Position numbers and translations under genes: made by a program. 64,000 nt of DNA from Diospyros lotus (lineage: Eukaryota > Streptophyta > Magnoliopsida > Ericales > Ebenaceae). Each line of letters begins with the position of its first letter. Position 1 is the first letter of the stretch. This document shows, piece after piece, positions 21,665 through 60,147 of the stretch. The DNA is taken from NCBI RefSeq assembly GCF_014633365.1, contig NC_068344.1, positions 33,106,670 through 33,170,669 on the forward strand, in the 5' to 3' direction. Below the pieces are notes generated by a model that was not told the DNA's origin, made no database searches, and worked only from the letters and a program-made list of their open reading frames with translations.

Positions 21665-22780
21665 TTGATTGTAGTTGAGCCACACAAGAGAGATTGAAGA
21701 GGGAACTTCTAGTAGTTATGATCTTTGTCATGAAACATATTGTATCGTTCCCTCTGGTATTGATTTAATTAGCTTCATGACTTTCAATGGTTTTATGTAA
21801 AACATTGGAAGGAGAAGTAAGAGATTCAAATAATTTCGTGCTTCTAGTTTTTTATTTTATTTTTTGCGCTAGAAACATATACCATCCTGCCAATCATATC
21901 ACAACGCTGCCAAGGCTTAGAGTTAGAAACAATCCAACATGATACCAAAAAGCTGAGATTTTTAAGCCAGCAGTCGTGTTTAGTTGTTGAAATAGAATTT
22001 AAGAAAATATATACGTAAATCTTTAAGTCTTTAACTCAAAATTTTACAACTATTCAACAGAAGTGTCTCTGTACAGAAAATGCATCAGAGAAACAATATA
22101 TCAGACCCTAATCTGATTGTCGAGTTGGCCACAACAAATGCATCACAGAGATCGAACTTTATAGTCGTGAATATTTTAATTTTCCAAGAAATTTCAAACA
22201 TTCACCTGGCAAACTACAGGTAAAATTCGTCTTCAAATTCAACTACTCAATGCAGTTTTCAGAAATCAAAGGATGATATCGAGCTAATAACAACAAAATC
22301 AATGCTTCAGCAATTAGTACAAACCAGTCATTCAAGATCAAAGCCGATCCATAGGTTGCAAACCTTGTCACAACCATGCCCCAAGATTAAGGAATGGAAA
22401 TCTATATATATATATATATGTTTATTATTTGGTTGATTGGAATGAGTTAATTTTGTGGTAGTTGGTTGGGAATGGTTTACTTTTGTAGGGACTAATTTTG
22501 AGGTGCTAGAAGAGTGGGACTCAATTTGAAAGGCTATGAAAATTGGAGGAAAAAGAATCAATTTATAAAAGAAGAAGATTTGACTTTAATATTACTCGCT
22601 TGTCTTTGCTTTAACTGCTTAAATACAAAATGCATACATTGAATATTTTAATTTGCTTTAACTGTTTCTATAGTCATGATGGATTGCTCCATTTTTTAAT
22701 ACAAATTCTAAATATTTCATGAGATTTTTTTGTTAGATATTGCTAGACAATTTTAGACACTTATTTAAATAATTCTATAT
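21665..22780. other. RFS6 3' flank, no gene seen
   Basis: It holds the RFS6 3' untranslated region (an AATAATTTCG-like AT-rich stretch near 21830) and AT-rich intergenic DNA with a short (TA)n tract near 22402. No supported coding region. This segment is missing from the duplicated copy at 58530/58531. Confidence 0.6.
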
Positions 22781-23740
22781 AAATATGTATTACTTATTTA
22801 TTTGTAGTACTAAATATTCTCAGTCCAATCCTAATAATATATATATATAGAGAGAGAGAGAGAGGCAGTGAGGGCATGTGCACATTAAAAGACAAACATA
22901 CAACATAAACTGATGTAGGAAGAAGTTAATGCCAATGGTTAGAAACTTCATAAAAATACTTTTGACAATAAAAAATTTACACACTCCAAGATCATTGAAT
23001 CGATGAGAAAATATCAAAAGAATCACTTCAATCAAAGTGTTTCTGCACAATTTAAAATAGAAACTTCAACTAACTATAATACCTAATAAAAGAAACATAT
23101 TAAACAAAATACTGATTAGCGAAAGGGAAACATGAAAAGAAAAAAGAAAACATATGCCAATCAGACCATGCGAGATTGTACATAGCTCAAGTGTTGACTC
23201 AAAACATTCTAACACCATATTATGTGCACTATTATGAAAAAATAACATATTAAGTTGGTAAAAGCTTGATTTGTTGCCTAGTTTCTCCAGGATAACATTC
23301 TATCAATTTCTTTTGTGAAGAGCATTAACCCATATATTTGAAGATTTATATGTTATAGTTATTCGAAAGATAATATATATTTGTTACAGTTCGTCATTAG
23401 AAAGTATTGGGTATTTCAGCTTTTTATTAAAATTCTCATTGCTGTGTGCCATTAAGGAGACTAAATGTTTTCATGTGTCTTAAGCTACCTAATCAAGTTA
23501 TTTGAGTCATTCACCACAAACTTAAGCTCAACTAGCAAAACAAATTAACCTGACAAACAATAAAGTAATCTCAGCTCTTGATGTAAATTTTGAAAAAATC
23601 CAATTTCTTTGCAAGAAATGAGACTCTTTCCTTGTAGCATTTCAGTGGGTGTTCATATCAAGAGTTAAGGTTATTGGAATTTTTAATTTGATGTTTCACA
23701 ATACTTACCAATAACAACATTTGAACTTGTCTAATTTCTA
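22781..23740. other. Duplicated non-coding flank of an RLP relic
   Basis: Non-coding on both strands as far as can be seen. It matches 58531-59521 with scattered differences and includes a TA/GA microsatellite near 22840-22865. On the minus strand it is the 3' flank of the RLP pseudogene. Confidence 0.6.
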
Positions 23741-24339
23741 CTACTTCAGTGGTAGTGATCTTGCTTTTTTAGCCTCTCTGCACTTCTGTCCTATACCTTC
23801 AATCATCCTCACAATCCATAAAGGTTTCCCTGTAGTGAATATTAGAAATCCCATAAGGCCAAGCACCAATCTGCATCCATAACCTGGCAATATGCCTACC
23901 CAATTAAGACCATCTGAAGATTGTGAATCCTCTTCTGCTGCTGCTTGTGGTGCTCGAGGATAGCTGCATGCCTTTGACATTGGTGGTCCACATAAGCCCA
24001 GGTTTCCAACATAAGAATTATTTGAAAATGTAGCAAATTGTCCTCCTCGAGGTATTCGTCTAGTTAGTTGATTCTGCAAAAGGTTTAGAACTCCCAAGAG
24101 AATTTAAATTTGTTAATTGCATCAAGATCTCCTCGACAAGCTTACTGGAAGAGAGGTCTAACCATTCGAGCATTATCAAATTCTCAAGAGACTTTGGTAT
24201 ATCCCTTGTAAGGCTGTTGTGAGATAAGATCAAGCCTCGAATTGAAATCAGTTCTCCAATCATCTCCGGAATTGCTCCTTGAAATTTGCTTCTCAATAGA
24301 TTAATGGCTGTGAAAATGGTCAAAACTTTCTCCATTTAT
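23741..24339 (-). pseudogene. LRR receptor-like protein relic A, C-terminal part
   Basis: On the minus strand it runs from MEKVLTIFTAINLLRSKFQG through LRR units (ISIRGLILSHNSLTRDIPKS, LEWLDLSSSKLVEEI). A frameshift near 24090 follows, then the end NNSYVGNLGLCGPPMSKAC, an acidic spacer, a membrane segment (GILPGYGCRLVLGLMGFLIF) and a short basic tail. It is homologous to the C terminus of the RLP gene at 40933-42425. At 24340-24355 it is cut by a hAT element; the missing upstream part resumes at 39505. Frame damage and the insertion make it non-functional. Confidence 0.85.
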
Positions 24340-25844
24340 AATGGCTGTGAAAATGGGCGGATCCAGCCCACGGGATGGAGCCCACTCAATTTTTTTAAAA
24401 AATAATTTTTTTAACCCAAAAATAATGATTTTTTTTCCAAGCCCACCCCAACCAGCCCAAACTCAATCTCTAATCCCTAATTCTCAAACCTAAACCCAAA
24501 GGTCCTAAACCTAAACTCAAATCCTCTTTGGCCAAGCGACGATCTTTTTCTTCTTCTTCTTCTTGTCTCAGCTGTCAGCTCTCTTAAATCTTCAACTCTT
24601 CCTCAACATTCAGCAAATATACATAGTAAGCCATGTCTTCTCTCTATCTCTTCCATTTATCTAGTTTAAAATTCGTTTAAAGTGTGTGTTTGGATCGCAA
24701 GAAAGAAGGAAAGAAAAAGAGAGTGTGAGAGAGAGAAAAAGTTGAGGCGACAAGAGAAAATAGCTGGAGGGGGTTTCGCCGGGGATGGCCCACGCCTGGT
24801 GCGAGATTCACCGGTCGGTTGACTGTAAATATTCTACATATTTTCTGAAAAAAAAAAATAAATATTCTACACATTTTCATTATAAAGGAACTCAATATCC
24901 GTCTTCTTTCAAGCACGGCTAGTACCCAATTATTATTCTCTCAATTGACTTTTTCCTTTTCCATGACATATGTTCTGTGAAGTGTTTTATTTATTTTCTT
25001 ATTTATTTCTTTATATGCTCAAACCATTTATTCATTATTTATTGGGTTTTTACATTCTTCAACTTGAAGTTGTTGTTGCTCCAGCATTATTTATTTTCTT
25101 ATTTATTCATTTGCTCTGGAAAAATCATTAGGATTTAGATTGCCATCAATTTAAGCATGCTTCAGTACCCAACTCATCTTGTCAACACATCGTTTAAGAG
25201 ACAAATAAAGAAATTTTCTGCCACTAAGGATATCTGGTAAAAGATCGAGATATACAAAAGCTGATTGCTGAAATTCTTGTTCTTGGCAGGCAGCTAGTGG
25301 GCATCCATTCATACTCTAGAGACTAAGAGACTAGAGGTAAGTTAATTTATTTGATTATGTTCTATTATTTATTTGATTATGTTCTATTTAATGTATTTTT
25401 CTATTTTGTTTTGACTAATTTAACACCTATGATGGGTTTAGTAAATAAGACTTTAGGGGTTTAATGATAAGGGTCAATATTTCCGATATCCTAATGAATT
25501 ATATCCCTATTTTGGCTTTATAATTATGCTTAAAATAAATAATTATTTGCATTATATATTATTACATGATGAAGCAAGAAAGCTGTCTTCTACAATTAAT
25601 TAGGGGCATAAATCGAAGACGTTGGATTACCCATTATTGTTGCTCAAAATCATGGGCCAACTATGGAGTCTAGAGGATGTTTCATGTGCACTTGGCCCAA
25701 CAATCAAATAGAATCCAACATAAGACAAGCCCAAGCCCAAGCTCAAGCCCAACACAAGGAAGGTCCAAGCCCAAGCCCAAGCTCAAGCCCAACACAAAGA
25801 AGGCCCAAAACCCAAAAACATGAAAAGCCCAAGTCCCACAAATA

Positions 25845-25959
25845 GGATGACATCATCGCTTACATCATGGGATATGATGACATCATCGCTTACATCATGG
25901 GATAGGATGACATCATCGCTTACATCATGGTTAAAATGACATCATCGCTTACATCATCA
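25845..25959 (+). promoter_or_regulatory. 30-bp repeat array in the U3 of the 5' LTR, as-1-like
   Basis: Four units share TGACATCATCGCTTACATCA. The reverse complement TGATGTAAGCGATGATGTCA matches the layout of the as-1 promoter element, two TGACG-type half-sites 12 bp apart, with both CG steps read as TG. The array ends about 60 bp upstream of the TATA box. The 3' LTR has five units (37256-37399). An enhancer role is inferred. Confidence 0.5.
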
Positions 25960-26019
25960 ATTAGATATTTTGTATTATTAAATTATATAATTAAGTGGTT
26001 TCCATTACATCTTTTAGCC

Positions 26020-26028
26020 TATAAATAG
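26020..26028 (+). promoter_or_regulatory. TATA box of the 5' LTR
   Basis: TATAAATAG lies in AGCCTATAAATAGAGC, in the usual position between U3 repeats and the transcribed leader. The same box occurs in the 3' LTR at 37461. Confidence 0.75.
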
Positions 26029-27096
26029 AGCACTTAGGTGCACTTGTAAAGGGGATGATTCTTGAATGAAATTTTAGTTGTTTTAATTGCTCTTGTTCTT
26101 TTTTATTTTCTCTTGCAAATCTTACTTCTTCTTTTTCTTATTTAAATTCTTATGTCATTTATTGTTACTTTATTATCCACCACCTAAATGGTCGGTTAAT
26201 TTCTGCCTTTAAATTCTTGCAATTTCAATTATTATCTTTCAATTATATACCGCCTATATGGTCGGTCAAAATAGTCTTTCAATTATTGTCTTTAAATTAT
26301 ATACCGCCTATATGGTCGGTTAAAAAATAGTCTTTTAAATACTGTCTTTTAATTCCCGTCATTTAAATTCCTGCCAATTTATTTTAAAAATGGAAATGAG
26401 TAGCTAAATCTAATCTTGGGTTAAGGCGAGGACAGTGTCCAATGTTCTTGAATCTCAAGATAAGCCAAACCTCGATGAATGCAAGATTTACCTGAGTTAA
26501 ACTCGAGTTGAGTGTATAAATGATTTTGTGAGTTTGGATTGGGTCATCATCCTAACTTAGAACTCTCATGCCATGTATGAAAGTTGCTAGAATTGGAGAT
26601 GAGATATACCCAAGCTCAGACGATCAGATCATAGTCTCTAGTATAATAAAATTTACAGTGATATCTTAACCCAGAACCATCATATCATGTATGAGGGTTG
26701 CTTAGCTAAGAATCATTCGTATCTTGAATTATAACTACGAAACGATCATCTGTTTATTTCAGATTAATATTGCTGTTTAAATTACTATAAGAGATTTATA
26801 AGGCATTGGTTCTGAACTCGCCTCAACCCAAGACCTTTTTAATATTCAAAAAAAAAAAAAAAAACCTTTTCACAATCAGGAAAACTTAGCTCTCTTTGGA
26901 TAAATCAACCCGAATGAACCATTCTTTTGTTAAATAAACCTCCAAGTGAATCGACCCGGACTTGTCCGGAATTTATATTTGTGCTACAACTACACTCACA
27001 CACTGGTGAGTTTAAACCTCCTCACCATTTCAACACTGAACATCCAAAACTGATTAACGCTATTTAAATTGTAGGGTGAGGAGTGCAGCCAAATTT

Positions 27097-27204: not shown

Positions 27205-30200
27205 ATGAGACTTAGATCTGGTAGAATCTTAAGCCATCAGTTAAACCATTCTATAGATTCTTTATCAAAGACTGAAATATCACTTTTACAATCCATAATG
27301 TCTCAACAAAATGAAAACCTATCTGCTCATGGGAGTGATCATGGAGAACATGATGTTGATGAGATTAAACCTCTCAGGGATTATTTGAACCCTCCAAGGC
27401 AAACCACTCCCTCTTGCATAATCCTACCAATAAACCATCATCGATTTGTCCTTAAACCAGCTACCATACAAATGCTCCCCACATTTCATGGTATGGATTC
27501 TGAAAATCCATATACACACATGAGGGATTTTGAAGAGGTATGTGGTACCTGTGGGGATCAAAATATTCATGAGGACACTGTTAGACTAAAACTCTTCCCG
27601 TTCTCACTCAAGGATAAAGCAAAAATGTGGTTAGGGACTCTAGAGCCCAGATCAATAGGAACTTGGAGGGAGATGCAAACAAAATTTCTAAAAAAATACT
27701 TCCTAGCTAATAGAACAGCATCACTCCAAAGGAAAATGATGAATTTCGTCTGTAAACCAAATGAAACATTTGCTCAAACTTGGGAACGTTTCAAGGACCT
27801 CTTGCATTCTTGCCCACACCATGCCTTTGAACAATGGCGGGTAGTTAGTTTCTTCTTTAATGCCTTAACTCCTAATTTGAAAATGCTGGTGTCCACCATG
27901 TGTAATGGTGACTTTTATGAAAAAACTCCTGAAGAGGCTGTTGCATACTTTGACCATGTAGCTGAAAACTCTAGAAATTGGGAAGTTGGGCCATTAACCA
28001 TGGGAGATTTGAGAGACCAATACAATCCACAACCAAAGGGAAAACTCCAATTAAATGAAACTGATGACATCAGTGCTAGATTAGCTCTGTTGACAAAGAA
28101 AATGGAAGAATTGGAGATGAAAAAAATGAAGGCTATCAATGAGGTAGAGGTGCATTGTGTAGTCTGTGAAGCCAATAGCCATAGAACAGAGGAGTGTCCA
28201 ACTCTCCCTGCTTTCAAAGAAGTGTTGTATGGCCAAACTTCAAACTCACAACCAAGGCAAACAGAGGGTAGGATATACCAAAACCAGAACCAGGGTGGAA
28301 ATTATCAAGGGTACAACCCAAACTCAAACACCTACCATCCAAATTCTAGGAACCACCCAAATTTCTCTTGGAGAAATGACTCAGCACCTCAACCACACCA
28401 ACCATTTCCCTCACAACCACAGCCACAACCTCAGCCACAGCTCTACCAGCCTAACCAAGGACCATCTGGCTCATATCAGCCACCGCATAAGATATCCCTA
28501 GAGGATACTCTACAACAATTTATGCAAGGGCAGATGGGGAACAATGCTCAGGTAGCAAAATTCCAAGAGCAAACAAATAGGGCAATTGAGGACATGAGGA
28601 GTCAGCTAACCAAGCTAACTCAAACTTTGACTGTGAGAGAACCTGGGAAATTCCCTTCTCAACCAAATCCCAACCCCGTGAGGCAAACAAATCAAGTGGA
28701 ATCATCAAATAGTGGGAACTATAATCATGAGCAGGTGCAAGCAGTCACTGTCCTTAGGAATGGAAAAATAATTGACAAACCAGATGACCCTAGGACAAAC
28801 CAACCTAATGCACAAGAAGAAGAACAAAATGAAAATATAAAAAATGACAATGCTCCAGCTTTGGAGGAAAAACTTGAAAACAAAAAAAAGGAAGATAAAG
28901 AAAAAAATAAGGTGGAAGAATTCAAGAGCAACCCTGCACCACCATTCCCTCAAAGACTTACTCAAACAAAGAGGGAAAAACAAAATGCTGATATTTATGA
29001 AGTGTTCAAGCAGGTGAGGATTAACATTCCTCTACTTGATGCAATCAAACAGACACCATCTTATGCAAAATTCTTAAAAGACTTGTGTACTGTTAAAAGA
29101 AAGATCAACATCAAGGAGAAAACATTCTTAACCGAACAGGTGAGTTCCATCCTGCAACTTAAAACACCTCCTAAGTACAAAGACCCTGGTAGCCCAACCA
29201 TTTCTTGCATAATTGGAAGCCAGAGGGTGGACCAAGCACTCTTAGATCTAGGAGCAAGTGTCAATTTGCTTCCTTATAGTGTATATCAGCAACTGGGCTT
29301 AGGAGAACTCAAGCCAACAAGAGTTACCCTACAGCTTGCTGATAGGTCAATCAAAGTCCCTAGGGGGATAGTGGAGGATGTATTAGTGCAGGTGGACAAA
29401 TTTTACTTCCCTGTTGATTTTATAGTCTTGGACACACAACCCCATCAAGGCCCTCAACCCCCTGTTCCAGTCATTCTTGGTAGACCATTCCTAGCAACAT
29501 CAAATGCCATAATTAATTGTAGGAATGGAATACTTAAGTTATCATTTGGAAACATGACTGTAGAGATGAATATCTTTAGAGTTTCCAAACAACACATAGC
29601 TGAGAATGAGGTGGAGGAAGTAGATTTGGTTCAAACATTAGCTGAGGACTATTTTGCAAAAGAATTTTTGAACAAATCTATGAAAGAAGATCAAGAAGAG
29701 AGAAAGTTAAAAGAATTAGAGAACACTAGGGAGGAAGAAGCAATGCCTGTGGCTCAATGGATTCCCAAATCAGAACCATTGGGTTCTCTGAACAATGAGG
29801 AGTCACAATCTGATAATACCTCACCCACACCTGAAATGAAACCTTTGCCAAGTGAGTTAAAATATGCATTTCTAGGTGATGAGAACACACTCCCCGTAGT
29901 CATCTCTTCAAGTTTGACATCCCAACAGGAAATTCAGCTGATAAACATTCTGAGAGCTCATAAAAAAGCCTTAGGTTGGACCATCTCAGACTTGCATGGA
30001 ATTAGTCCTTTGACTTGCACTCATAGGATATTTCTAGAGGAGGATGCTAAACCTGTTAGGCAAATGCAGAGGAGACTCAATCCTAACATGAAAGAGGTGG
30101 TTAGGAAAGAAGTGCTAAAGTTGCTGGATGCGGGTATTATATACCCCATCTCTGATTCAAAGTGGGTCAGCCCCACTCAAGTGGTCCCAAAAAGGTCTGG

Positions 30201-32766
30201 AGTCACAGTGGTGAGAAATGAAAAGAATGAGTTGATCCCTACTCGCATCCAAACCGGATGGAGAGTGTGCATTGATTACAGAAAACTCAATGCAATGACT
30301 AGAAAAGACCATTTTCCATTGCCGTTCTTGGACCAAGTCCTTGAAAGAATAGCTGGACAAGCATTCTATTGTTTCCTTGATGGTTATTCATGATATAACC
30401 AGATTGACATTGCCCTAGAGGACCAGGAAAAGACCACTTTCACATGTCCATTTGGGACATTTGCCTATAGACGTATGCCTTTTGGACTATGCAATGCCCC
30501 TGCCACCTTCCAAAGGTGTGTGATGAGTATTTTTAGTGAGATGACAGAACACATTGTGGAGGTTTTTATGGATGATTTCTCTGTCTATGGAGCTAGTTTT
30601 GAGGCTTGTTTAGAGAATTTAGAGAGAGTTCTAGCTCGTTGTGAAGAAACCCACCTTGTGCTTAACTGGGAAAAATGTCATTTCATGGTCAAACAAGGTA
30701 TAGTCCTAGGGCATATTGTCTCTGCTAAGGGAATGGAGGTGGACAAAGCCAAAGTTGAAGCCATCCAAAAATTACCAGTCCCTAAGAGTGTTAAGGACAT
30801 CAGGTCTTTCCTTGGGCATGCTGGGTTCTATAGGAGATTCATAGCATCTTTTAGCAGCATAGCCCGGCCTCTGTGTAATTTGCTCTCCCAAGATGTTCCA
30901 TTTGAGTGGACATCATCTTGTCAAACCTCTTTTGAGAGGTTAAGAAATGCTCTCATCTCAGCCCCCATTATTCAACCACCAGATTGGTCATTGCCCTTTG
31001 AACTCATGTGTGATGCAAGTGATTATGCTGTAGGAGCAGTCCTAGGGCAAAGAAAAGATAAAAAACCTTATGTCATCTACTATGCCAGTAAAACCCTCAA
31101 TGAAGCGCAAAAGAATTACACAACAACTGAGAAGGAATTATTGGCAGTAGTGTTTGCATTAGAGAAGTTCAGATCATATCTGGTGGGGTCATTGGTCATT
31201 GTTTTCACTGACCATGCTGCTTTGAAATACTTGCTCACCAAACAAGACGCCAAACCGCGTCTTATTAGGTGGATTTTGTTACTCCAAGAATTCAACATAG
31301 AAATCAAAGATAAAAAGGGAGTAGAAAATGTGGTGGCAGACCATTTGTCTAGACTTCCATGCCAAGACCTTAATCTAGACAAGGAACCAATCAGGGACAC
31401 CTTTCCAGATGAACAACTCTTCCTTATCAATGATACCTCAACCTCTGTTACACCATGGTATGCAGATCTGGCCAACTATCTAGCCACCGGTCTAATTCCA
31501 AATCATTGGACCAAGCTAGATAAACAAAAATTCTTTAGGAAGGTTAGGACTTATTTCTGGGATGACCCTTACTTGTTTAAGTATTGTGCTGACCAAATTT
31601 TAAGAAGGTGCATCCCCGAGCATGAGCAACAGAGTGTTTTGAATTTTTGTCATACTCTTGCTTGTGGAGGTCATTTCTCCACAAGAAAAACATTGGCCAA
31701 GATCTTACAAAGTGGATTCTTTTGGCCTACCATGTTTAGAGATGTGCATCAGTTCTGTAGTTCATGTGATAGATGCCAAAGGCTAGGAAGCCTAACCAAG
31801 AGGAATATGATGCCCTTGCAACCCATTCAGGTGTTAGAAATTTTTGATTGTTGGGGAATAGACTTCATGGGACCATTTGTTAATTCAGGTGGACACGAGT
31901 ACATCTTGTTAGCTGTTGACTATGTGTCCAAGTGGGTAGAAGCAATCCCAACAAGAACAAACGATCATCGGGTTGTAATGAAGTTTTTGAAAGAAAATAT
32001 TTTTAGTAGGTTTGGAATGCCTAGGGCCATCATAAGTGATGGAGGTTCTCATTTCTGCAACAAACCAGTGGCTGAATTAATGAGAAAATATGGAGTAGTC
32101 TACAAGGTTGCAACCCCATATCACCCTCAAACCAATGGCCAAGCTGAATTGGCCAATAGGGAGATAAAAAGGATTTTAGAGAAAACAGTCAATTCTAATC
32201 GCAAGGATTGGTCCTTGAGGTTGATTGATGCACTTTGGGCCTATAGAACTGCTTACAAGACCATTCTAGGCATGTCTCCCTACAGGTTGGTATATGGCAA
32301 GCCATGTCATTTACCAGTTGAAATAGAGCACAAAGCCTACTGGGCCATTAGGAAGATTAATGAGGAATCAACAGAAGTGAGCCTTAATAGGAAATTACAA
32401 CTTAATGAACTTGAAGAACTTAGGGATGAGGCATTTGAAAATGCCAAATTGTCTAAGTTGCATATGAAAAAGTTGCATGACCAACACATCAACAGAAAAA
32501 AATTTCATGTTGGTCAGCAGGTGCTTCTCTACAACTCAAGGCTTCATTTGTTCCCAGGGAAGTTGAGATCAAAATGGACAGGACCCTATACAATCAAGAC
32601 CATATCAGAATATGGGGCAATGGAAATTGAAATCAAAGAGTCTGGACAATGTTTTAAAGTGAATGGTCAAAGGCTGAAACCATATCTAGGCATAGCTGAG
32701 AAAGAACTTGTTGAAGGAAATGAAGAAATGGTGGAGTTGGGTGATCCACCATCAATGGTTGAGTGA
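27205..32766 (+). pseudogene. Gag-Pol polyprotein, single frame with one in-frame TGA
   Basis: One frame of 1853 codons starts MRLRSGRIL. It contains gag (about residues 90-260), a zinc knuckle CVVCEANSHRTEEC (about 317-330), protease with LLDLGASVNLLP (about 680), RT with [12 protein letters not shown] (about 1121), RNase H ([12 protein letters not shown]), and integrase with an HHCC finger (CSSCDRCQ) and D-D-E residues ([25 protein letters not shown]). The only interruption is TGA at 30391-30393 (codon 1063), just before the RT fingers/palm block, where relatives have Gly. Everything after it continues in the same frame to 32766. There are no frameshifts. Unless the stop is read through, RT and integrase are not made, although complementation by intact relatives is possible. 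Confidence 0.93.
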
Positions 32767-33022: not shown

Positions 33023-33038
33023 ATTCAAGTTGGGGGGT
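33023..33038 (+). other. Internal PPT-like motif 1
   Basis: ATTCAAGTTGGGGGGT follows a GAGGACAATG motif 257 bp after the end of pol. It is the same motif that directly precedes the 3' LTR, so it looks like a former or second polypurine tract at the start of the passenger module. Confidence 0.6.
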
Positions 33039-33362: not shown

Positions 33363-33500
33363 CTATAAAGGAAGAGGCGCACTGCCAAATGTTGAAAAAT
33401 GAGGCACCGAGCATTGAAAAAAAATAGACGCACCTGACCCTACAATTATGGCGTGCCTCGAGCCAAGTATAGAATAGTGACACCCATTGCTCTATAAGAG
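33363..33500 (+). promoter_or_regulatory. Candidate internal promoter of the passenger genes
   Basis: Within a GC-richer patch, two TATA-like boxes occur: CCTATAAAGG (33362-33371) and CTCTATAAGAG (33490-33500). They are followed by a pyrimidine-rich leader-like stretch ending in GATCAG|GTATTTT, a good splice donor. This resembles a plant core promoter plus first leader exon. No transcript evidence is available. Confidence 0.35.
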
Positions 33501-33578: not shown

Positions 33579-34351
33579 GTATTTTCGTTCATTTTGTAAG
33601 ATTTATAGTTTCTACTTTTCTCTTATTATAGTTGTCTTTTGATTTAAAAAAAAAAAAAATGGATCTTCAACTATCAAAAATTCGCAAGTACTATCCATCT
33701 CTCCCAATGAATGATTTGAAACAAATTTATATTGGTAGGTGTGAAAGACTTAGGATATTGATGCGTAATAACATCCCTGAAGATATTCGTTGGCTGATCG
33801 AAGCAAAAGTTCGATTAGCTGGCGAAACTTCACCTAGTTTTAAGCACTTCCCGGGCTTAGGGAAGAGTAGTTTTGCAAAGAAACGAAGAGCTAAAAGAGT
33901 GAATGGTTGTCACAAGTGTGCTCGTTGGACCTGTAACACTCGATGCAAATCTGTGGGGTTTACGTCCGTAAATCGAGAAGATAAAATTAGTTTCATAAAG
34001 GATGGACTGAGTAAGGAGTCATTGGATGATATCCGATTGACTCTTGAGACGCATCCATGTGGAATAGTGCAAAGAGAACTTCTTGCTTTATGGACCCAGT
34101 TCATAAGTGACCACCAACGCTATAGTCTTGGGAATCTGACTAAAAACGACCCTGTTTGCCAATCTATAAGAAAATTGGATGGGAAGCTTATCCTCGCTTC
34201 ATAGAAAGTGTTTAAGCCGTTTCTGGACGTAAAACCAGAGGAAGATGTGAGCCACAATCACAACTACTTGTACATACGCATGATTTTTGTTTGTATTTAT
34301 TTCTTGTTGAATTGTTGTATAGCTACTTTTGATCGCCAAACCTCTTTCCAG
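33579..34351 (+). other. Predicted intron joining leader to LOG
   Basis: Donor CAG|GTATTT at 33579 and acceptor CTCTTTCCAG|GG ending at 34351, 20 bp before the LOG start codon, define a 773-bp intron that removes the Cys-rich frame. Unspliced RNA would expose the first gene; spliced RNA would expose LOG. This is a prediction only. Confidence 0.3.
33659..34204 (+). CDS. Basic Cys-rich putative nucleic-acid-binding protein (retrotransposon passenger)
   Basis: An intact 181-residue frame starts MDLQLSKIRKYYPSL after a poly-A run, 893 bp downstream of pol and on the same strand. Its centre has a basic stretch AKKRRAKR (residues 73-80) followed at once by a Cys cluster C84-x2-C87-x4-C92-x3-C96 with His85, then SFIKDGLSKESLDDI. 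The order of a short N-terminal helix-rich part, an Arg/Lys run, a CxxC finger and an FI-x-G segment resembles the small nucleic-acid-binding or silencing-suppressor proteins of carla- and allexiviruses (Viral_NABP family). This is a visual match and needs a profile search. No host gene was recognised. It precedes LOG by 168 bp and may share a transcript with it. Confidence 0.7.
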   Translation: MDLQLSKIRKYYPSLPMNDLKQIYIGRCERLRILMRNNIPEDIRWLIEAKVRLAGETSPSFKHFPGLGKSSFAKKRRAKRVNGCHKCARWTCNTRCKSVGFTSVNREDKISFIKDGLSKESLDDIRLTLETHPCGIVQRELLALWTQFISDHQRYSLGNLTKNDPVCQSIRKLDGKLILAS

Positions 34352-34371
34352 GGCATACAAAAGAAACAAAC

Positions 34372-35031
34372 ATGGAAGGCCAGTTAGTTCGTCGAATCAA
34401 AACCATATGTGTACTTTGTGGCTCTCAACTTGGGAGTGATATTTGTTACGCACTTGCAGCAAGCCAACTAAGCCAAAAATTAGGAGAGAAAAAGATTAAT
34501 TTGGTATATGGAGGGGGAAGTCGTGGGTTGAATGGTTATGTTTCACAAGCTGCACTTTTTGGAAAATCATATGTGGTAGGTGTAATGCCAATCCCTTTGG
34601 CTGAACCACGTATTTCTGGGATTACACGCGGTCAACTTGTAGAAACGACTTCTATGTCTGAGCGCATGGCTTGTAAGATTTATCAGTCAGACGCTTTCAT
34701 CGCTTTACCAGGAGGTTTTGGTACACTTGAAGAAATCTTCTGTATAATCTCTTGGGCCAAGAGCAATCTGCATACCAAACCCATTGGACTTTTAAATGTT
34801 AACCATTTTTTCGATGGGTTGCTCTCTTTTATTGATCAGGCTGTGGACCAACAGTTCATTTCTCCTTCAGCAAGAAAGATTCTTATTTCTGCATCCACCG
34901 TCGAGGAGCTGCTAGAGAAATTACATACTTATGTTCCACAACACGATCCTTATGAGCCTCGGATAGATTGGTCTAAGGCAATCAAAAACAAGCGGCAAAA
35001 AGGTTCGATTAATTTAGAATTATCCCTGTAA
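34372..35031 (+). CDS. LOG: LONELY GUY-type cytokinin riboside 5'-monophosphate phosphoribohydrolase
   Basis: An intact, intronless 219-residue frame, the usual LOG length. It has the LOG fold signatures ICVLCGS (residues 12-18), LVYGGGSRGLNG (44-55), VGVMP, the catalytic PGGFGTLEE (113-121, family PGGxGTxxE), the conserved Arg98 of the M-x-x-R segment, and GLLNVNHFFDGLLSFIDQAV. LOG enzymes release active cytokinin bases from their nucleotide monophosphates in one step, in cytosol and nucleus. The Lys that usually follows Arg98 is Met here. Host LOG genes have several introns, so an intronless copy inside an LTR element, on the gag-pol strand, points to capture through RNA. An open frame in a young element suggests it was under selection or captured recently. 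Confidence 0.93.
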   Translation: MEGQLVRRIKTICVLCGSQLGSDICYALAASQLSQKLGEKKINLVYGGGSRGLNGYVSQAALFGKSYVVGVMPIPLAEPRISGITRGQLVETTSMSERMACKIYQSDAFIALPGGFGTLEEIFCIISWAKSNLHTKPIGLLNVNHFFDGLLSFIDQAVDQQFISPSARKILISASTVEELLEKLHTYVPQHDPYEPRIDWSKAIKNKRQKGSINLELSL

Positions 35032-35032
35032 G

Positions 35033-35223
35033 GCAAGTCTATGATAAGATGGCTGAGTAAGGAGTACTTTTTGTACTCTTGAGACGCATCTCCTATGACT
35101 TGTACAAAATTTCTTTTCTTGTGTTCTTAAAAATAAAAAAAAATAAAAAAACTGTGGAATGTTGTTAGGCGAGTCTATGATAAGATGGCTGAGTAAGGAG
35201 TACTTTGTACTCTTGAGACGCAT
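35033..35223 (+). repeat. Duplicated GAGTAC...GTACTC hairpin motif downstream of LOG
   Basis: Two copies (35033-35089 and 35168-35223) share CTATGATAAGATGGCTGAGT and then GGAGTACTTT..GTACTCTTGAGACGCAT, which can form a short stem. A related sequence lies inside the Cys-rich gene at about 34004-34054 (CTGAGTAAGGAGT ... ACTCTTGAGACGCAT), so part of that gene, or its source, was copied into the 3' region. Confidence 0.75.
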
Positions 35224-35387
35224 TCTGTTTATCTTATGACTTGTATGAAATTTTTATTTTGGTGTGAAAATATAAAAATATATATATATGGTATGCTCAT
35301 TTGTTTGTTTTGAGTTTTAGCAGTTCACAGTAAATCTATGGACTTATGGAGTTACAGGTATTCCTAACAACCCTATTTTATTACTGC

Positions 35388-35404
35388 AATTCAAGTTGGG
35401 GGGA
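35388..35404 (+). other. Internal PPT-like motif 2
   Basis: AATTCAAGTTGGGGGGAG, followed by GTAAGGTATATTTATGAATT, matches motif 1 and its downstream flank (GGTAAGGTGTACTTAGGAATT at 33036). The pair marks a larger duplicated segment on either side of the two passenger genes. Confidence 0.55.
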
Positions 35405-36870: not shown

Positions 36871-36887
36871 ATTCAAGTTGGGGGGTG
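36871..36887 (+). other. Polypurine tract before the 3' LTR
   Basis: ATTCAAGTTGGGGGGTG ends directly at the TGATGAGGG start of the 3' LTR and is the expected plus-strand primer. Confidence 0.85.
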
Positions 36888-38440
36888 TGATGAGGGTCAA
36901 TATTTCCGATATCCTAATGAATTATATCCCTATTTTGGCTTTATAATTATGCTTAAAATAAATAATTATTTGCATTATATATTATTACATGATGAAGCAA
37001 GAAAGCTGTCTTCTACAATTAATTAGGGGCATAAATAGAAGACGTTGGATTACCCATTATTGTTGCTCAAAATCATGGGCCAACTATGGAGTCTAGAGGA
37101 TGTTTCATGTGCACTTGGCCCAACAATCAAATAGAATCCAACATAAGACAAGCCCAAGCCCAAGCTCAAGCCCAACACAAGGAAGGTCCAAGCCCAAGCC
37201 CAACACAAAGAAGGCCCAAAACCCAAAAACATGAAAAGCCCAAGTCCCACAAATAGGATGACATCATCGCTTACATCATGGGATATGATGACATCATCGC
37301 TTACATCATGGGATAGGATGACATCATCGCTTACATCATGGGATAGGATGACATCATCGCTTACATCATGGTTAAAATGACATCATCGCTTACATCATCA
37401 ATTAGATATTTTGTATTATTAAATTATATAATTAAGTGGTTTCCATTACATCTTTTAGCCTATAAATAGAGCACTTAGGTGCACTTGTAAAGGGGATGAT
37501 TCTTGAATGAAATTTTAGTTGTTTTAATTGCTCTTGTTCTTTTTTATTTTCTCTTGCAAATCTTACTTCTTCTTTTTCTTATTTAAATTCTTATGTCATT
37601 TATTGTTACTTTATTATCCACCGCCTAAATGGTCGGTTAATTTCTGCCTTTAAATTCTTGCAATTTCAATTATTATCTTTCAATTATATACCGCCTATAT
37701 GGTCGGTCAAAATAGTCTTTCAATTATTGTCTTTAAATTATATACCGCCTATATGGTCGGTTAAAAAATAGTCTTTTAAATACTGTCTTTTAATTCCCGT
37801 CATTTAAATTCCTGCCAATTTATTTTAAAAATGGAAATGAGTAGCTAAATCTAATCTTGGGTTAAGGCGAGGACAGTGTCCAATGTTTTTGAATCTCAAG
37901 ATAAGCCAAACCTCGATGAATGCAAGATTTACCTGAGTTAAACTCGAGTTGAGTGTATAAATGATTTTGTGAGTTTGGATTGGGTCATCATCCTAACTTA
38001 GAACTCTCATGCCATGTATGAAAGTTGCTAGAATTGGAGATGAGATATACCCAAGCTCAGACGATCAGATCATAGTCTCTAGTATAATAAAATTTACAGT
38101 GATATCTTAACCCAGAACCATCATATCATGTATGAGGGTTGCTTAGCTAAGAATCATTCGTATCTTGAATTATAACTACGAAACGATCATCTGTTTATTT
38201 CAGATTAATATTGCTGTTTAAATTACTATAAGAGATTTATAAGGCATTGGTTCTGAACTCGCCTCAACCCAAGACCTTTTTAATATTCAAAAAAAAAAAA
38301 AAACCTTTTCACAATCAGGAAAACTTAGCTCTCTTTGGATAAATCAACCCGAATGAACCATTCTTTTGTTAAATAAACCTCCCAGTGAATCGACCCGGAC
38401 TTGTCCGGAATTTATATTTGTGCTACAACTACACTCACAC
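36888..38440 (+). repeat. 3' LTR of the LOG-bearing element, 3'-truncated
   Basis: It starts TGATGAGGGT and matches the 5' LTR nearly base for base up to ACTACACTCACAC at 38440, where hAT sequence begins. The last roughly 88 bp present in the 5' LTR (27003-27090) are missing. It has five instead of four 30-bp U3 units (37256-37399) and a TATA box at 37461. Confidence 0.9.
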
Positions 38441-40932: not shown

Positions 40933-43900
40933 TTACCTTCCATAATTTCTCCTGCATTTGCGGCCCTGACCCTGAGATTTCTTCTTCTGCCACTCCCTGC
41001 ATTTGTTTTCTGCACCTTCAATCATCCTCATAACCCCTCTGGGTTTTCCTGTAGAGAACATTAAATATCCTATAACGAGACCCAGTACCAATCCACACCC
41101 GTAACCTGACAGTATGACTCCCCAGTCGAAACCATCTGAAGATTGTGAATCCTTTTCTTTTGCTGGCTGGGGTGCATCAGGATTGCTGCATGACTTCGAC
41201 ATCGGTCGTCCACATAAGCCCAAGTTTCCAACATAAGAATCGTTTGAGAATGTATCAAATTGTGGTCCTTGAGGTATTCGTCCAGCTAGTTGATTATGCG
41301 AAAGGTTTAGAACTCCAAGAGAATTTAAGGCTGTTAGCTGTTTCGGGATCTCCCCGACAAGCTTATTGGAAGAGAGGTCTAACCATTCAATCTTTGTCAA
41401 TTTTCCAAGAGACTTCGGTATGCGCCCTGTAAGGCTGTTGTGAGATAAGTTCAACCCTCGAACTGAAGTTAGCTTTCCAATTATCTCTGGAATTTCTCCT
41501 TCAAATTTGTTTCTCGATAGATCAATGGCTATGAAAATGGTCAACACTCTCTCCATTTCAAGCACTGAACCTTTGATCACCATGGTCAAGGAATCAAGAT
41601 AATAATCAGAAGTATTTTGGCCAATGTATTCGAGTGTATAGTTGGCTTCGCTGATGTTCATCATAGCAGTAAAATTTCTAAAATATGTTGTTGGTAGTGG
41701 ACCAGTGAAACAATTTTCTGACAAATCCATAACTCGCAAGCTGGGGAAGGGATATTTAGTCTTGGAGATTGAAATGGGTCCATGGAATCTGTTGGCTCTC
41801 AAGGTAAGAACTCGCAAATTTGTCAAATTTTCCAACCAGTGTGGGTACTTATCAGAGAAATTGTTTCTTCCGAGATCTAGCACGCTTAGGTATGTGCAAT
41901 TGACTAAAGATTTCGGCACTGGTCCTTGGAATCCATTGCCATTAAGTTTGATAGTTTCCAAGTGATTATGTCTCACAAATGTGTCAGGGACAATCCCGGA
42001 AAAGTTATTGCTTCCCAAATCAAGAACAACTAATTCATTGAGGTTTCCCACACATTTTGGAATCACACCACTGAAGTTATTATTTGACACATCAAGAGCC
42101 CTGAGGGCATTTTGACTGCAGAGCATGTCGAAGTTTAAGTCACCACTAAAGTTATTTGATGAGATAATCAGATGGGTAAGCACTTCGAGTTTGAACGTTG
42201 AACTCCCAAGTGTACCAGTTAGCGTGTTGTGCTCCAGATTTATGAATTTCAGTGAACTGGAATTTATCTCATTTACGTGTCCCGTGAGCATATTGTGATT
42301 TAGCTGCAAGGAAGACAAAGTTGGCAAAGCAAATAACCAAGGTGGAATTGTACCGGTGATACAGTTATGATCTAAGGATAAATATTGTAAATTGGATAGT
42401 CCGATTAATCGTGAAGGAAGAGGACCTGTGAAATGATAACTCCCGATCAGATTTTGTTAGATTTTCATTGAAGTAAGAAAATTCAATCATTCACTAAGCA
42501 AATGAATGAAACATTATGTCATTACACTAATTGAGTCATAAATAAAATATATATATTTATTTTAAAATACTAAAAAATATAAAATTTCTAAATATTAAAT
42601 TCATGATTTATCATATTATACATTCCACTCTAGTCTATTTTAGTCCTTTGTGCGTTTAGATCTTCTATCCTTGTTCATTAGGGTTTTCCTCCTTTATTGA
42701 GGGTGTGATTTCCTTTTGGTTGTTTGGTGCGGGGTATGTTTTGCCTGCGTTTAATTTGTAGGTTTGGCCTTTTTTTTAATATAATTCTTACTTACAAAAA
42801 AAAAAAATCTTAATATAAAATTAGACTAACTGATGATCTAATTGTGACATATTTAAGATTAATTTTTTAAATCTATACCTATTTGTATATGTAAATAACA
42901 TCACAAATGAAAATATACACATACATATATATATATATATATATATGATAAACTCATAAACTCGAATCGGTAAATTTGGACTGATAAACTCGTGAATTAG
43001 GTCTGATTCTATAAAAATCTAATTCTACAAGTGAGTTGACTCGTTTTATATCTCATGACTCGTCAACTTATACGAATTAACTCACGATTTTAACAACAAT
43101 GAACATATTGTAACTTACATGCAAGGCATTCAAAATTGGCAAAGTAAATAACCCAGATAGAATTGTACCGGTGATATAGTTATGATCCAAGGCTAATGTT
43201 TGCAAATAATTGGGTAGTCCGGTTAATTGTGAGAAAAGAGGACATGTGAAATGATAAATCCCAATCGGATTTTGTTAGATTTGCATTGAAGCCAGAGAAT
43301 TAAATCATTCACTAAGCAAATGAATGAAACATTATACGATAATACTAATTAAGTCATAAATAAAAAATATATATTTATTTTAAAATATTAAATAATATAA
43401 AATTTCTAAATATTAAATTCATAATTTATTATTAATTCTTCATTCATCCATTCATAATTAAAATTTCAAACGACAAACATTACCATCATCATCAACAAAT
43501 ATTGTTAAATAAAAATAAAAAATATTATTAAATTTTTATATTATGTCATTACACTAATTAAGTTATCAATATCAAAAAGATATATTTGTTTCTTGCTAAT
43601 CATCAATCTTAATATAAAAGTAGTTCATCTCTCATGCGATGCATGAAAGTTCATATGTATTAAATTTATTTAAAATTAACAACCTTACAACCATAAATTC
43701 CATCTAGACGTTTCAAGAACTACATATTTTTCATAAACTAATAATTAATTTAATATATGATAAATATAAATAGATTATATAAAATAATAAATAATATGAC
43801 AACATATAATAAATTAGTAACATAAATAATAAAAAATATAAAACATAATAAAATTTTCAAAAGAAATATGACAACATATGATAAATATAAATAGCCTATA

Positions 43901-46900
43901 CAAAATATTAATTTTGTCAAAATAACTTAAACGATTTGTTTAAAATAATTCAATTTTGCCTAAATAACTAATTTAACATAACCTATAAACTAATTATTTT
44001 TTAAAATTAAGTAGTAACATAAACATATATAAGATTTGTATTTTTTTTTGCATGATTTTGAAACTAATTAAGGGTTTTAGAGTTTTGAGTGGTGGCTTTA
44101 TTGAGAGAGAATGAGAGGTAAATTATGAGAAATAAAATAAAAAATTAAATTTATTTTTTAAAAAAATGTACTTGGCAGTCGGTATTTGGCGGTATTACTT
44201 AATATCTCAAGATTTCTCCAAATTTAAAAAAGTCTAATTTTTTTTGTAATTTATTTTATTTAAAATTTTATGTTAATATTTAAAAATTAATAATATAGAT
44301 TAGATTTTGCCTCTTCATATACCAACATGCTTATACATTCTCCAAACATTATTCAATCATGAATAAAACCATTTACAGGGTTCCAAGAATTACATGTTTT
44401 TCGCAAATCTAGATTTAATTAATGATCTATAAAAATTTCATTTCGAGTAAGCAAAAAAATAAATAAAATATAATAAAATATTGAAATAAAAAGTGAAAAT
44501 GGGAGAAAAAAAATTTGACAGCTGTTTTGTTATAATATATATATATAAATTAGACCCATCCATAATTTAATTGTGATATATTTAAAATAATTATTTGAAT
44601 CTGCATCTATTTATACATGTAAATAACAACATCACAAATAAAAATATACACATATATATATGATAAACCCCTAAACTCAGACCAATAAATTCATAAACTT
44701 GGATTGGTAAACTTGTGAATTGAGTCTGATTCTATAAAAACCTGATCTTACAAGTGAGTTGACTCATTTTATATTTCATGACTCATAAACTCGTACGAGT
44801 TGACTTACGATTTTAATAACAATGAACATATTGTAACTTTGTTATTATGCATTCACAGTCGTCAAAGGAAATAACCCAGATAGGATTCTACCGATGACAT
44901 AGTTATGATCCAAGACTAATGTTTGCAAATTGGATAGTCTGATTAATCGTGAAGGAAGGGGACCTCTGAAATGATAATTCCCAATTAGATTTTGTTATAT
45001 TTGCATTGAAGTAATAGAACTAAGCAAAGCAAATTAATTAAACATTATGCCATTACATTAATTAAGTCATAAATAAAAAATATATATTTATTTTAAAATA
45101 TTAAATAATATAAAATTTTTAAATATTAAATATATCATTTATCATCAATTCTTCATTCATCCATCCATAATCAAAATTTCAAACAACAAACATTATCATC
45201 ATCATCAACATATATTGTTAAATATAAATACAAATACTAGGTCATAAAAATAATAAATATTGTTAAATTTCTATATTATGTCATTACACTAATTAAGTTA
45301 TCAATATAAAAAAGATATATTTGTTTCTTGCTAATCATCAATCTTAATATAAAATTAGACCCATCATAATCTAATTGTGACATATTTGAGATTAATTATT
45401 TGAATCTGCACCTATTTGTACATGTAGATAATAACATCACAAATAAAAATATACATATATATGGTAAACTCCTAAACTCGGACCAATAAACTCATAAATT
45501 CGAATTGGTAAACTCGTGAATCGGGTTCGATTCTATAAAAACCCGATCTCACAAGTGAATTGACTCGTTTTATATTTCATGACTCATAAACTCGTACGAG
45601 TTAACTTACGATTTTAACGACAATGAACATATTGTAACTTAGTTGTAAGGCATTCAAAGCTGGTAAAACAAATAACCCAGATGGAATTGTACTGATGATA
45701 TAATTATGATCCAAGACTAATGTTTGCAAATTGGGTAGTCTGATTAATTGTGAAGGAAGATGACCTCTGAAATGATAATTGCTAATTAGATTTTGTTATA
45801 TTTGCATTGAAGTAATATAACTAAGCAAAGCAAATTAATGAAACATTATGCCATTACACTAATTAAGTCATAAATAAAAAATATATATTTATTTTAAAAT
45901 ATTAAATAATATAAAATTTCTAAATATTAAATATATCATTTATCATCAATTCTTCATTCATCCATCCATAATCAAAATTTCAAACAACAAACATTATCAT
46001 CATCATCAACAGATATTGTTAAATATAAATACAAATGCTAAGTCATAAAAATAACAAATATTGTTAAATTTCTATATCATGTCATTACACTAATTAAGTT
46101 ATCAATATAAAAAAGATTTATTTGTTTCTTATTAATCATCAATCTTAATATAAAATTAGACTCATCCATAATCTAATTGTGACATATTTAAGATTAATTA
46201 TTTGAATCTGCACCTATTCTTACATGTAAACTCCTAAACTCGGACCAATAAACTCGTAAATTCGAACTGGTAAACTCGTGAATCAGGTTCGATTCTATAA
46301 AAACCCGATCTTACAAGTGAATTGACTCGTTTTATATCTCATGATTCATAAACTCGTACGAGTTAACTTACGATTTTAACAACAATGAACATATTGTAAC
46401 TTAGTTGTAAGGCATTCAAAGCTGGTAAAGCAAATAACCCAGATGGAATTGTACCGGTGATATAGTTATGATCCAAGAATAATATTTGCAAATTGGGTAG
46501 TTCGATTAATCGTGAAAGAAGAGGACCTGTAAAATGATAATTTCCAATCAGATTTTGTTAGATTTGCATTGAAGTAATAGAACTAAGCAAAGCAAATTAA
46601 TGAAACATTATGTCATTACACTAATTAAGTCATAAATAAAAAATATATTTTTATTTTAAAATATTAAATAATATAAAATTTCTAAATATTAAATCCATCA
46701 TTTATCATCAATTCTTCATTTATCAATCCATAATCCAAATTTCAAACAACACATATTACCATCATCATCAACAAATATTGTTAAATATAAATACAAATAC
46801 TAAGTCATAAAAACAATAAATATTGTTAAATTTGTATATTATGTCATTACACTAATTAAGTTATTAATATCAAAAAGATATATTTGTTTCTTGCTAATTA

Positions 46901-57660: not shown

Positions 57661-58530
57661 CCGTTTACGTCAGGTCTGAAATCCTAACCGTCTATCCTGC
57701 TCTTCATCATGTATTATATACCTAATTGGACGGGTGATGAGATGACTTTTGAGCTCATTTTGACAGTGATGCACCTGGGAAGCATAATTTTGATCTCTTG
57801 AAAAAACTCGTTTTGCCCGATGGGTCGATCCCCGCTTACCCGGCCGGCCCACCAAAGATTGCCTCTTCTCCAACCCGGACCCTGATGGTATTAAGTGAGC
57901 GTTTTGCATCGACTCTCGTCTATGAGCACTCATATTTTACTATACTTGTGCTTGAAATATAATTCTGATCTTTAATGATGATTGAATTTCAATAAGTTTT
58001 AGTCGTCTACTTACCATATAATTCTGAACTATTTATCTGTTTTGACTGGGATTTTGGCCATTTTGTTATTTTGTCTGACTGACCAAAATTTGCTTGGTTG
58101 AAGATATGGAACATGAGAACTAGTACACTGGAGTGCTTGCAGTCTACTACCATCTAAGCCGCGGGCTGGTCACACTGCCTTACAATGCTGCAATGCCCAT
58201 ATCCCTAAAGGTCGTCGAACATGAAATCTTCACCGTTACACCCATCAAGGTATTGGTCCCTGGCTTTAGCTTCGCATCCTGGGGGCTCATTGACATGTTC
58301 AATGCTGGTGTGGTGGAGCAATTGAAGGGCTCAAATATGAAGTTAAAGCAGGTGCCAATTTGTCTGAACTAGAAGATGGGTATAGAGGTGAAGGAATGAA
58401 TTGGCCGCATAGAAGATTGAGAACTTGAGCTCGGAATTGGTTCCCATTGTCTGGATGGAGGTTAAAGGGCGTGGCCGGTTTTGGTGCTTATTCGTCTGCT
58501 AAGCCAAGGAAGTGCACTGTGGGATCAACC
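57661..58530 (+). pseudogene. Duplicated 3' fragment of RFS6, non-functional
   Basis: It matches RFS6 from the end of exon 2 (CCGTTTACGTCAG) through intron 2, exon 3, intron 3 and exon 4 up to GTGGGATCA, introns included. Exon 3 has lost about 10 bp. Exon 4 lacks about 150 bp between two AGTCTAC words and has several frameshifts. It lacks the first exon and the catalytic region, so no enzyme can be made. It continues directly into sequence matching 22781 onward, with about 1.2 kb of the RFS6 3' flank deleted. Confidence 0.92.
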
Positions 58531-60139: not shown

Positions 60140-60147
60140 CCATGGAC

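Follow-up and report, generated by a model that had tools for sequence, protein, structure and literature searches.

The window, a 64,000-nucleotide stretch of the Diospyros lotus genome, contains a Ty3/gypsy-type LTR retrotransposon with two additional genes between the end of pol and the 3' LTR. The second of these is an open reading frame (ORF) of the LONELY GUY (LOG) family, here called retro-LOG, and the first encodes a putative nucleic-acid-binding protein, NABP. The features are as follows.

25465..27001, + strand: 5' LTR, paired with 36888-38440
27205..30393, + strand: gag, protease and the initial portion of reverse transcriptase (RT); ORF ending at an in-frame stop in the window copy
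30394..32766, + strand: remaining RT, RNase H and integrase, in the same frame as 27205..30393; Pfam matches
33492..33497, + strand: TATA-like box CTATAA, in 5/5 aligned copies, two of them of sub-family A; candidate internal promoter
33579..33631, + strand: donor-like GTAYT (33579; 5/5 copies) and acceptor-like TATAG (33630-33631; 4/5 copies)
33659..34204, + strand: NABP ORF, 181 aa; Viral_NABP and Carla_C4 matches
34205..34371, + strand: NABP-LOG spacer, conserved across sub-families, first ~60 bases nearly invariant
34372..35031, + strand: retro-LOG ORF, 219 aa; Pfam, 2a33 and TIGR00730 matches
34663..34668, + strand: codons of Arg98 (catalytic, kept) and Met99 (Lys in the compared host LOGs)
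34987..35028, + strand: C-terminal tail NKRQKGSINLELSL, a basic stretch plus LxLxL (EAR-like)
36879..36887, + strand: polypurine-tract-like TGGGGGGTG, immediately 5' of the 3' LTR
36888..38440, + strand: 3' LTR, paired with 25465-27001

The frame at 27205-30393 matches Pfam Retrotrans_gag (3.4e-17) and Asp_protease_2 (3.1e-6), and the downstream pol ORF (30475-32766) matches RVT_1, RT_RNaseH, Integrase_H2C2 and rve; a single in-frame stop within RT (codon 1063) divides gag-pol into two frames in the window copy. Two LTRs thus enclose gag, protease, RT, RNase H and integrase in that order. Because the Ty3/gypsy assignment rests on the LTRs and this domain order, it holds without a target-site duplication, none of which is recognizable at the window copy (flanks TTTAA and TGCTA). 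At the candidate primer binding site, after the 5' LTR, stands TGGTGAGTTTAAACC. The RT motifs and the extra ORF space between integrase and 3' LTR resemble those of Athila-type Ty3/gypsy elements, a candidate lineage in which an env-like ORF is described where this element has NABP and LOG. The two LTRs, aligned over about 1.52 kb, differ by 5 substitutions and 3 indels, which marks the insertion as young, as the initial annotation had stated; a rate of 1.3e-8 substitutions per site annually would date it to roughly 0.1-0.2 million years, an age that would be higher if slower woody-plant rates apply.

Several repeats accompany the element. The polypurine-like TTCAAGTTGGGGGG occurs three times, before NABP (33024-33037), behind LOG (35390-35403) and at the 3' LTR (36872-36885), and these stretches could act as extra plus-strand starts. 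A unit of ~120 bases stands in tandem behind LOG (35027-35282), as it does in five other sub-family A copies viewed; it holds the hairpin GAGTAC-TTTTT-GTACTC and by eye is similar to part of the NABP coding region. A different repeat is present in two copies, 86-94% alike, at 20538-25464 and 57661-61319, the former adjoining the 5' LTR as though the element had inserted into it. A dense array of diverged repeats, 77-93% alike and between a few hundred and some 1,400 bases long, fills 42285-49796.

The retro-LOG frame runs for 219 codons without an internal stop and encodes YGGGS, Arg98 and PGGFGTLEE. It lies on the gag-pol strand between the integrase end (32766) and the 3' LTR (36888). An intact LOG frame in this position had been read from the sequence in the initial annotation; its translation and a match to Pfam Lysine_decarbox, the LOG domain (E 8.2e-34, 117.1 bits, cut-off 27), bear this out, and the ORF and LTR coordinates confirm the placement. 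The frame also matches TIGR00730 (E 2.9e-41, 141.2 bits, cut-off 96.35); the NCBIfam equivalog cut-off (300) does not discriminate here, since Camellia LOG1 misses it too (135.3). The closest named protein among the matches listed is from Diospyros lotus (88%), and the nearest solved relative is Arabidopsis At2g37210 (2a33; 1.4e-53), named AtLOG3 in PMC5379747.

Retro-LOG has no introns. The genome also gave three host-like LOG matches, each exon-sized, which cover residues 4-40, 3-42 and 4-39 of a 62-residue query piece and, among the matches listed, are 92%, 80% and 72% identical to Camellia LOG1; the second contains a stop codon. Among the matches listed, those of retro-LOG type reach residue 62, whereas the host-like ones end earlier, so host LOG genes appear to be split by introns and retro-LOG is unsplit, as judged from the ends of protein matches. 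This agrees with the difference in introns that had been noted at the outset.

The NABP ORF, absent from the initial annotation, matches Viral_NABP (3.6e-8) and Carla_C4 (1.1e-5), both over the Pfam gathering cut-off. Among 24 NABP members scanned, that of the window included, 20 match Viral_NABP and 22 match Carla_C4 at E <= 0.01, and NABP is related to the nucleic-acid-binding cysteine-rich proteins of carlaviruses and betaflexiviruses. A PDB search with NABP gave no match up to E 10, and in a scan of viral contigs for NABP none of 51 pattern matches was confirmed. A database search returned 469 homologues; among the best 120 of these, the named hosts are Populus, Orobanche, Xanthoceras, Rhamnella and Acer, and three Orobanche gracilis proteins among the matches listed carry NABP and LOG domains in a single chain. 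Three pairs of LOG and NABP matches share a source and come from contigs of equal size (8,723, 4,511 and 2,128 nt), which suggests that each pair lies on one contig. Carlavirus p12 is described as a nuclear transcriptional activator and cytoplasmic silencing suppressor that affects small RNAs (PMC7588395).

Candidate expression signals precede both genes. Upstream of NABP, the donor-like context GATCAG/GTAYT is present in all five aligned copies, and an acceptor-like TTYCAG (AG 34350-34351) stands immediately before the LOG start in the same number. An intron bounded by the nearer acceptor, at 53 nt, would be short by plant standards; the donor may therefore serve the acceptor before LOG instead. 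We infer from these conserved motifs an internal promoter and splicing upstream of NABP and LOG. For the spacer between the two genes, identity is 97.6% when sub-family A is compared with B and 89.8% when it is compared with C.

Active-site residues were compared across 183 of 189 LOG proteins (199-245 aa; six left out), comprising 45 host rows, 6 rows from Xanthoceras and 132 'retro' rows, the last being all that remained. The window retro-LOG has the catalytic arginine and glutamate and the PGGxGTxxE motif, and the retro rows keep Arg98 in 127/132, Glu121 in 129/132 and Thr118 in 131/132; active-site columns are nearly invariant across the retro-LOG clade. Position 99, beside the catalytic arginine, is Met, Leu or Ile in 125/132 retro rows and Lys in 5/132. 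The window protein has Met99 and so lacks the adenine-binding lysine. The presence of Lys in 45/45 host rows is partly a matter of choice, because the motif used to select them itself contains this residue; the solved LOGs 2a33, 1ydh and 5zbj, which are independent of that motif, also have it. Position 96 in the prenyl pocket is His in 45/132 retro rows and Ser in the window. The comparison thus shows a LOG part in which the predicted catalytic Arg/Glu pair and phosphate-binding motif have been kept and the predicted adenine-binding lysine lost.

The C-terminus differs as well. The last five residues of the window protein are LELSL, an EAR-like LxLxL in terminal position; EAR motifs of the LxLxL type can bind TOPLESS-type corepressors. 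LxLxL falls within the last 12 residues in 117/132 retro rows, in 0/6 Xanthoceras rows and in 0/45 host rows, and upstream of them in 3/132 retro rows; the motif is short, and it is missing from 15/132 retro rows. Adjacent basic residues occur within the last 18 positions in 123/132 retro rows, 6/6 Xanthoceras rows and 3/45 host rows. The alignment shows the prenyl-pocket His to be varied in the LOG part and what appears to be a basic tail ending in LxLxL to have been gained. All six Xanthoceras proteins, the first to branch, lack LxLxL and keep the lysine. A link between loss of the lysine and gain of LxLxL was considered and rejected, with too few independent changes: when the tail and column 99 are left out of tree building, the lysine requires 2 changes and LxLxL 8, and because the lysine was lost about once, a link with the tail cannot be shown.

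Host LOGs promote cell division. The initial annotation had called the gene cytokinin-activating and suggested that locally raised cytokinin could favor division or meristem fate and thereby transmission of the element. We regard a working enzyme of this kind as possible, on the unlikely side. Nearly all retro rows retain Arg98, Glu121, Thr118 and PGGxGTLEE, which suggests that a phosphoribohydrolase reaction is still under selection, and LOG dN/dS is 0.24-0.32 between sub-families (see below). A protein serving purely as a scaffold would have little reason to conserve Arg98 and Glu121, and some activity, perhaps still on cytokinin nucleotides, is therefore possible. Against this reading stand the Met, Leu or Ile at position 99 in 125/132 retro rows (Met in the window), the retention of His96 in just 45/132 (Ser in the window) and the conserved tail, which it leaves unexplained. 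In bacterial enzymes, alanine at Arg155, Lys156, Thr175 or Glu178 each abolished the activity of CgLOGII (PMC5379747), and in CgLOG, where Lys100 lies in the adenine site, alanine at the site residues nearly abolished activity, except at Ser19 (PMC4979012). With the corresponding lysine replaced in retro-LOG, the label 'cytokinin-activating' is doubtful. Bacterial alanine data need not predict the effect of a Met, Ile or Leu change in a plant LOG, however, and plant LOGs with equal critical residues can yield different products (PMC11593424), so residues alone predict activity poorly.

Alternatively, the LOG-derived protein might be an N-glycosidase acting on another nucleotide, changing nucleotide pools and not hormone levels. 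A kept catalytic pair and phosphate loop beside a changed base pocket are what such an enzyme would have; with its substrate conjectural and the LxLxL tail unaccounted for, we consider it distinctly improbable.

The retro-LOG is one of many in this genome. The LOG protein was searched against the assembly (630 Mb; 43 contigs, among which 15 have lengths of 33-55 Mb), and 1,127 preliminary candidates emerged. Of these, the best 150 were scored, all with E <= 6.9e-128, and are 89-100% identical across residues 1-210 or more; 128 of these best 150 have no stop, a share that is biased upwards by their choice. The genome holds at least 150 close LOG copies.

Beside the window we read 40 places: 20 of sub-family A, to which the window copy belongs, 10 mostly of B, and 10 of C and D. 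NABP lies upstream of LOG at 40 of the 41 distinct loci, the window included (the exception is L032), so that the cassette is shown to be common to several element sub-families. At all 20 other A places the spacing between LOG and the upstream ORF is constant, and window-type gag-pol lies upstream in 16 of them (wholly, or in L024 partly). LOG lacks an internal stop in 18/20 A copies and NABP is open in 17/20; gag-pol is without a stop or frame-breaking gap in 7 of the 16 copies that bear it, one of which has a 12-nt in-frame insertion. Among the ten mostly-B places, LOG lacks an internal stop in nine, and NABP is found in nine and open in seven. An assembly chimera at the window is rejected because the same layout recurs at many independent loci.

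Four of the 20 A copies (L010, L025, L026 and L028) have no pol and show the order LTR, gag piece, NABP, LOG, the gag piece being diverged, at 39-40% identity across about 290 residues, and in L025 forming a 337-aa ORF. Both frames are open in one of these four (L028), compared with 14 of the 16 copies with gag-pol; NABP is broken in L010 and L026, and LOG in L025. With one broken frame in three of four, a need of pol-less copies for the pair is not demonstrated, and these copies do not bear out the idea, considered as a proof, that the pair acts in cis.

A tandem array of element units is suggested at G000:C14:18448121-18471026, where four LOG copies follow one another in head-to-tail order, 7.2-7.5 kb apart. 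This spacing had raised the idea that sub-family B is a pol-less form; it was rejected for L039, the single B copy read from end to end, whose gag-pol is complete, and the pol-less copies seen are of sub-family A.

In L039, an uninterrupted gag-pol of 1,835 codons is followed by NABP and LOG. Between this copy and the window, synonymous sites of gag-pol are saturated (894 of 1,135 differ; dN 0.14), whereas dS is 0.136 for NABP and 0.197 for LOG. Nucleotide identity stays at 0.63-0.81 across gag-pol; beyond about 32.9 kb and up to the LOG end it is 0.83-0.98, with the step located just after pol. Saturated gag-pol together with low NABP and LOG dS indicates that the 3' module was replaced long after the gag-pol lineages parted. 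This one element pair, the window and L039, shows that the NABP-LOG cassette was replaced between two old gag-pol lineages.

The cassette is also shown to be under purifying selection between sub-families. With one copy taken from each of A, B, C and D, giving six pairs that share sequences and are not independent, LOG dN/dS is 0.24-0.32 in all six (Fisher p 2.4e-7 to 3.1e-5). NABP dN/dS is 0.15-0.43, with p < 0.01 in five of the six pairs; the B-D pair is not significant (p 0.16). Within 21 A copies the ratio of nonsynonymous to synonymous changes is only mildly low (LOG 0.68, NABP 0.57), as expected where many changes are post-insertion. The dN/dS check proposed in the initial annotation therefore came out in favor of a selected gene. 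It had also named a lone, neutrally decaying LOG or a chimeric assembly as grounds for doubt; LOG is present in many copies, is under purifying selection and keeps its layout, and neither ground holds.

That LOG is passive cargo, a host transcript picked up by the element and of no use to it, is very improbable. Although the mild depletion within sub-family A, the stops in 2/20 LOG and 3/20 NABP copies and the broken frames of three of the four pol-less copies would fit it, the between-sub-family LOG dN/dS (p <= 3.1e-5) contradicts it, as does a single clade whose named members span five eudicot orders and whose active-site columns hardly vary.

That clade, comprising the retro-type LOGs, has support of 98/100 in a tree of 46 hand-picked rows (29 retro-type and 14 host rows out of 121 proteins, 2 PDB plant LOGs and a bacterial LOG as root; tails removed, bootstrap not fully settled), where its stem measures 0.56 changes per site. 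In a larger tree of 115 of the 121 proteins, six being left out for length, the host LOGs form one supported clade. A second tree, made without the tail and column 99, adds Paulownia to the retro-LOGs and places nine host rows behind a fully supported branch. The named members of the clade are Diospyros, Rehmannia, Populus, Reevesia, Pterospermum, Diplodiscus and Xanthoceras. Diospyros belongs to Ericales, Rehmannia and Paulownia to Lamiales, Populus to Malpighiales, Xanthoceras to Sapindales, and Reevesia, Pterospermum and Diplodiscus to Malvales.

A single old capture before these five orders parted is the simplest account, and horizontal movement is another possible route to a shared clade. 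The idea that the element recently took up one of the LOG genes of its own host is rejected: the host-like matches are 72-92% identical to Camellia LOG1 and the element copies 46-50%, among the matches listed, and the separate retro-LOG clade also counters it. The proposal that the element had captured a LOG thus stands as to capture and selection and fails as to a recent date; the phylogeny suggested as a check does set retro-LOGs apart from host LOGs, and, barring horizontal movement, it places the capture deep in time.

In other plants, Populus members of retro-LOG type are annotated as LOGL10 genes, a cluster named after Pterospermum has 327 member sequences, and Reevesia supplies 18 entries among the 120 matches listed. 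A predicted Xanthoceras sorbifolium protein (P0006) has two LOG-like parts with a gag-like piece between them, a composition that would fit an element origin of the Xanthoceras LOG. That retro-LOGs of other plants lie in retrotransposons is concluded from kinship, cluster size, fused proteins and PMC9289625, not from their own DNA. It is hardly credible that they are ordinary host genes, element-borne only in Diospyros: the LOGL10 annotation in Populus favors this, whereas the 327-member Pterospermum cluster, the 18 Reevesia entries, the Orobanche NABP-LOG proteins, the gag-like piece inside the Xanthoceras LOG protein and a YgdH domain in Citrus and Populus LTR retrotransposons (PMC9289625) oppose it.

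Taken together, one LOG clade, a pair replaced between families and purifying selection indicate that the pair probably helps the element. LOG was probably captured and selected for something other than, or beyond, cytokinin production. The reading we favor, with a little less than even confidence, is that this high-copy Ty3/gypsy family carries NABP and LOG as a mobile host-manipulation module in which LOG has been repurposed. The cassette would work on the host cell instead of in reverse transcription. Like the carlavirus cysteine-rich proteins to which it is akin, NABP would be a nucleic-acid binder that weakens RNA silencing and has a role in the nucleus. The protein derived from LOG would reside in the nucleus and bind a nucleotide with altered specificity, and its EAR-like tail may recruit or titrate a TOPLESS-type corepressor; together, the two proteins would ease the expression or passage of the element. 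Stated in its most specific form, in which an ancestral LOG became a nuclear effector by losing the lysine and gaining a corepressor-docking LxLxL, and joined a carlavirus-type RNA-binding partner in an anti-silencing or host-reprogramming cassette that moves between element families, the proposal is tentative and unlikely to hold in full.

A LOG borne by a retrotransposon is already known, contrary to the initial annotation, which knew of none described. In PMC9289625, consensus LTR retrotransposons from Citrus sinensis and C. clementina are reported to contain a YgdH/LONELY GUY domain, as are those from Populus trichocarpa once a filter is removed; the paper cites Steinbauerova et al. 2011, and its 121-genome screen names no genera other than Citrus and Populus for YgdH. 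These elements share with ours a LOG-family extra domain in plant Ty3/gypsy elements, but in the passages on YgdH the domain is only named, with no NABP, single clade, lysine loss, LxLxL or replacement. With AtLOG3 (2a33) and AtLOG8 (1ydh), retro-LOG shares the fold family, PGGxGTxxE and the catalytic Arg and Glu; it differs from plant LOGs in its about 50% identity, changed Lys99 and His96, basic LxLxL tail, lack of introns and carriage by an element. NABP resembles the cysteine-rich proteins of Betaflexiviridae (e.g. Chrysanthemum virus B p12) in its Cys-rich, basic domain over Pfam cut-offs, and is unlike them in having 181 aa, lying inside a retrotransposon and adjoining LOG. Some flexiviruses also carry AlkB. 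An AlkB-type m6A demethylase ORF in Phalaenopsis Ty3/gypsy elements is likewise a captured enzyme, but a different one and, in PMC9289625, from two orchid species only, whereas retro-LOG has kin in several eudicot orders. Among the titles and abstract openings listed by searches of the open-access literature, we found no NABP in a retrotransposon, no LxLxL tail on a LOG and no such cassette, and the word cytokinin is absent from a 2026 review by term search (PMC13317346). Within the open-access literature so searched, the basic LxLxL tail, NABP partner, cassette replacement, purifying selection, deep single origin of LOG and loss of the lysine were not found and appear to be new.

Plant LTR retrotransposons are usually viewed as gag-pol machines with poorly explained extra ORFs. 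The cassette described here offers a testable route by which an element may act on host silencing, hormone or corepressor pathways, and it links plant RNA-virus proteins with retrotransposons. It also carries a warning, in that genes annotated as 'LOGL10' may in some cases belong to elements and produce no cytokinin. If the effector reading is true, it would amount to a viral-style effector operon within an LTR retrotransposon.
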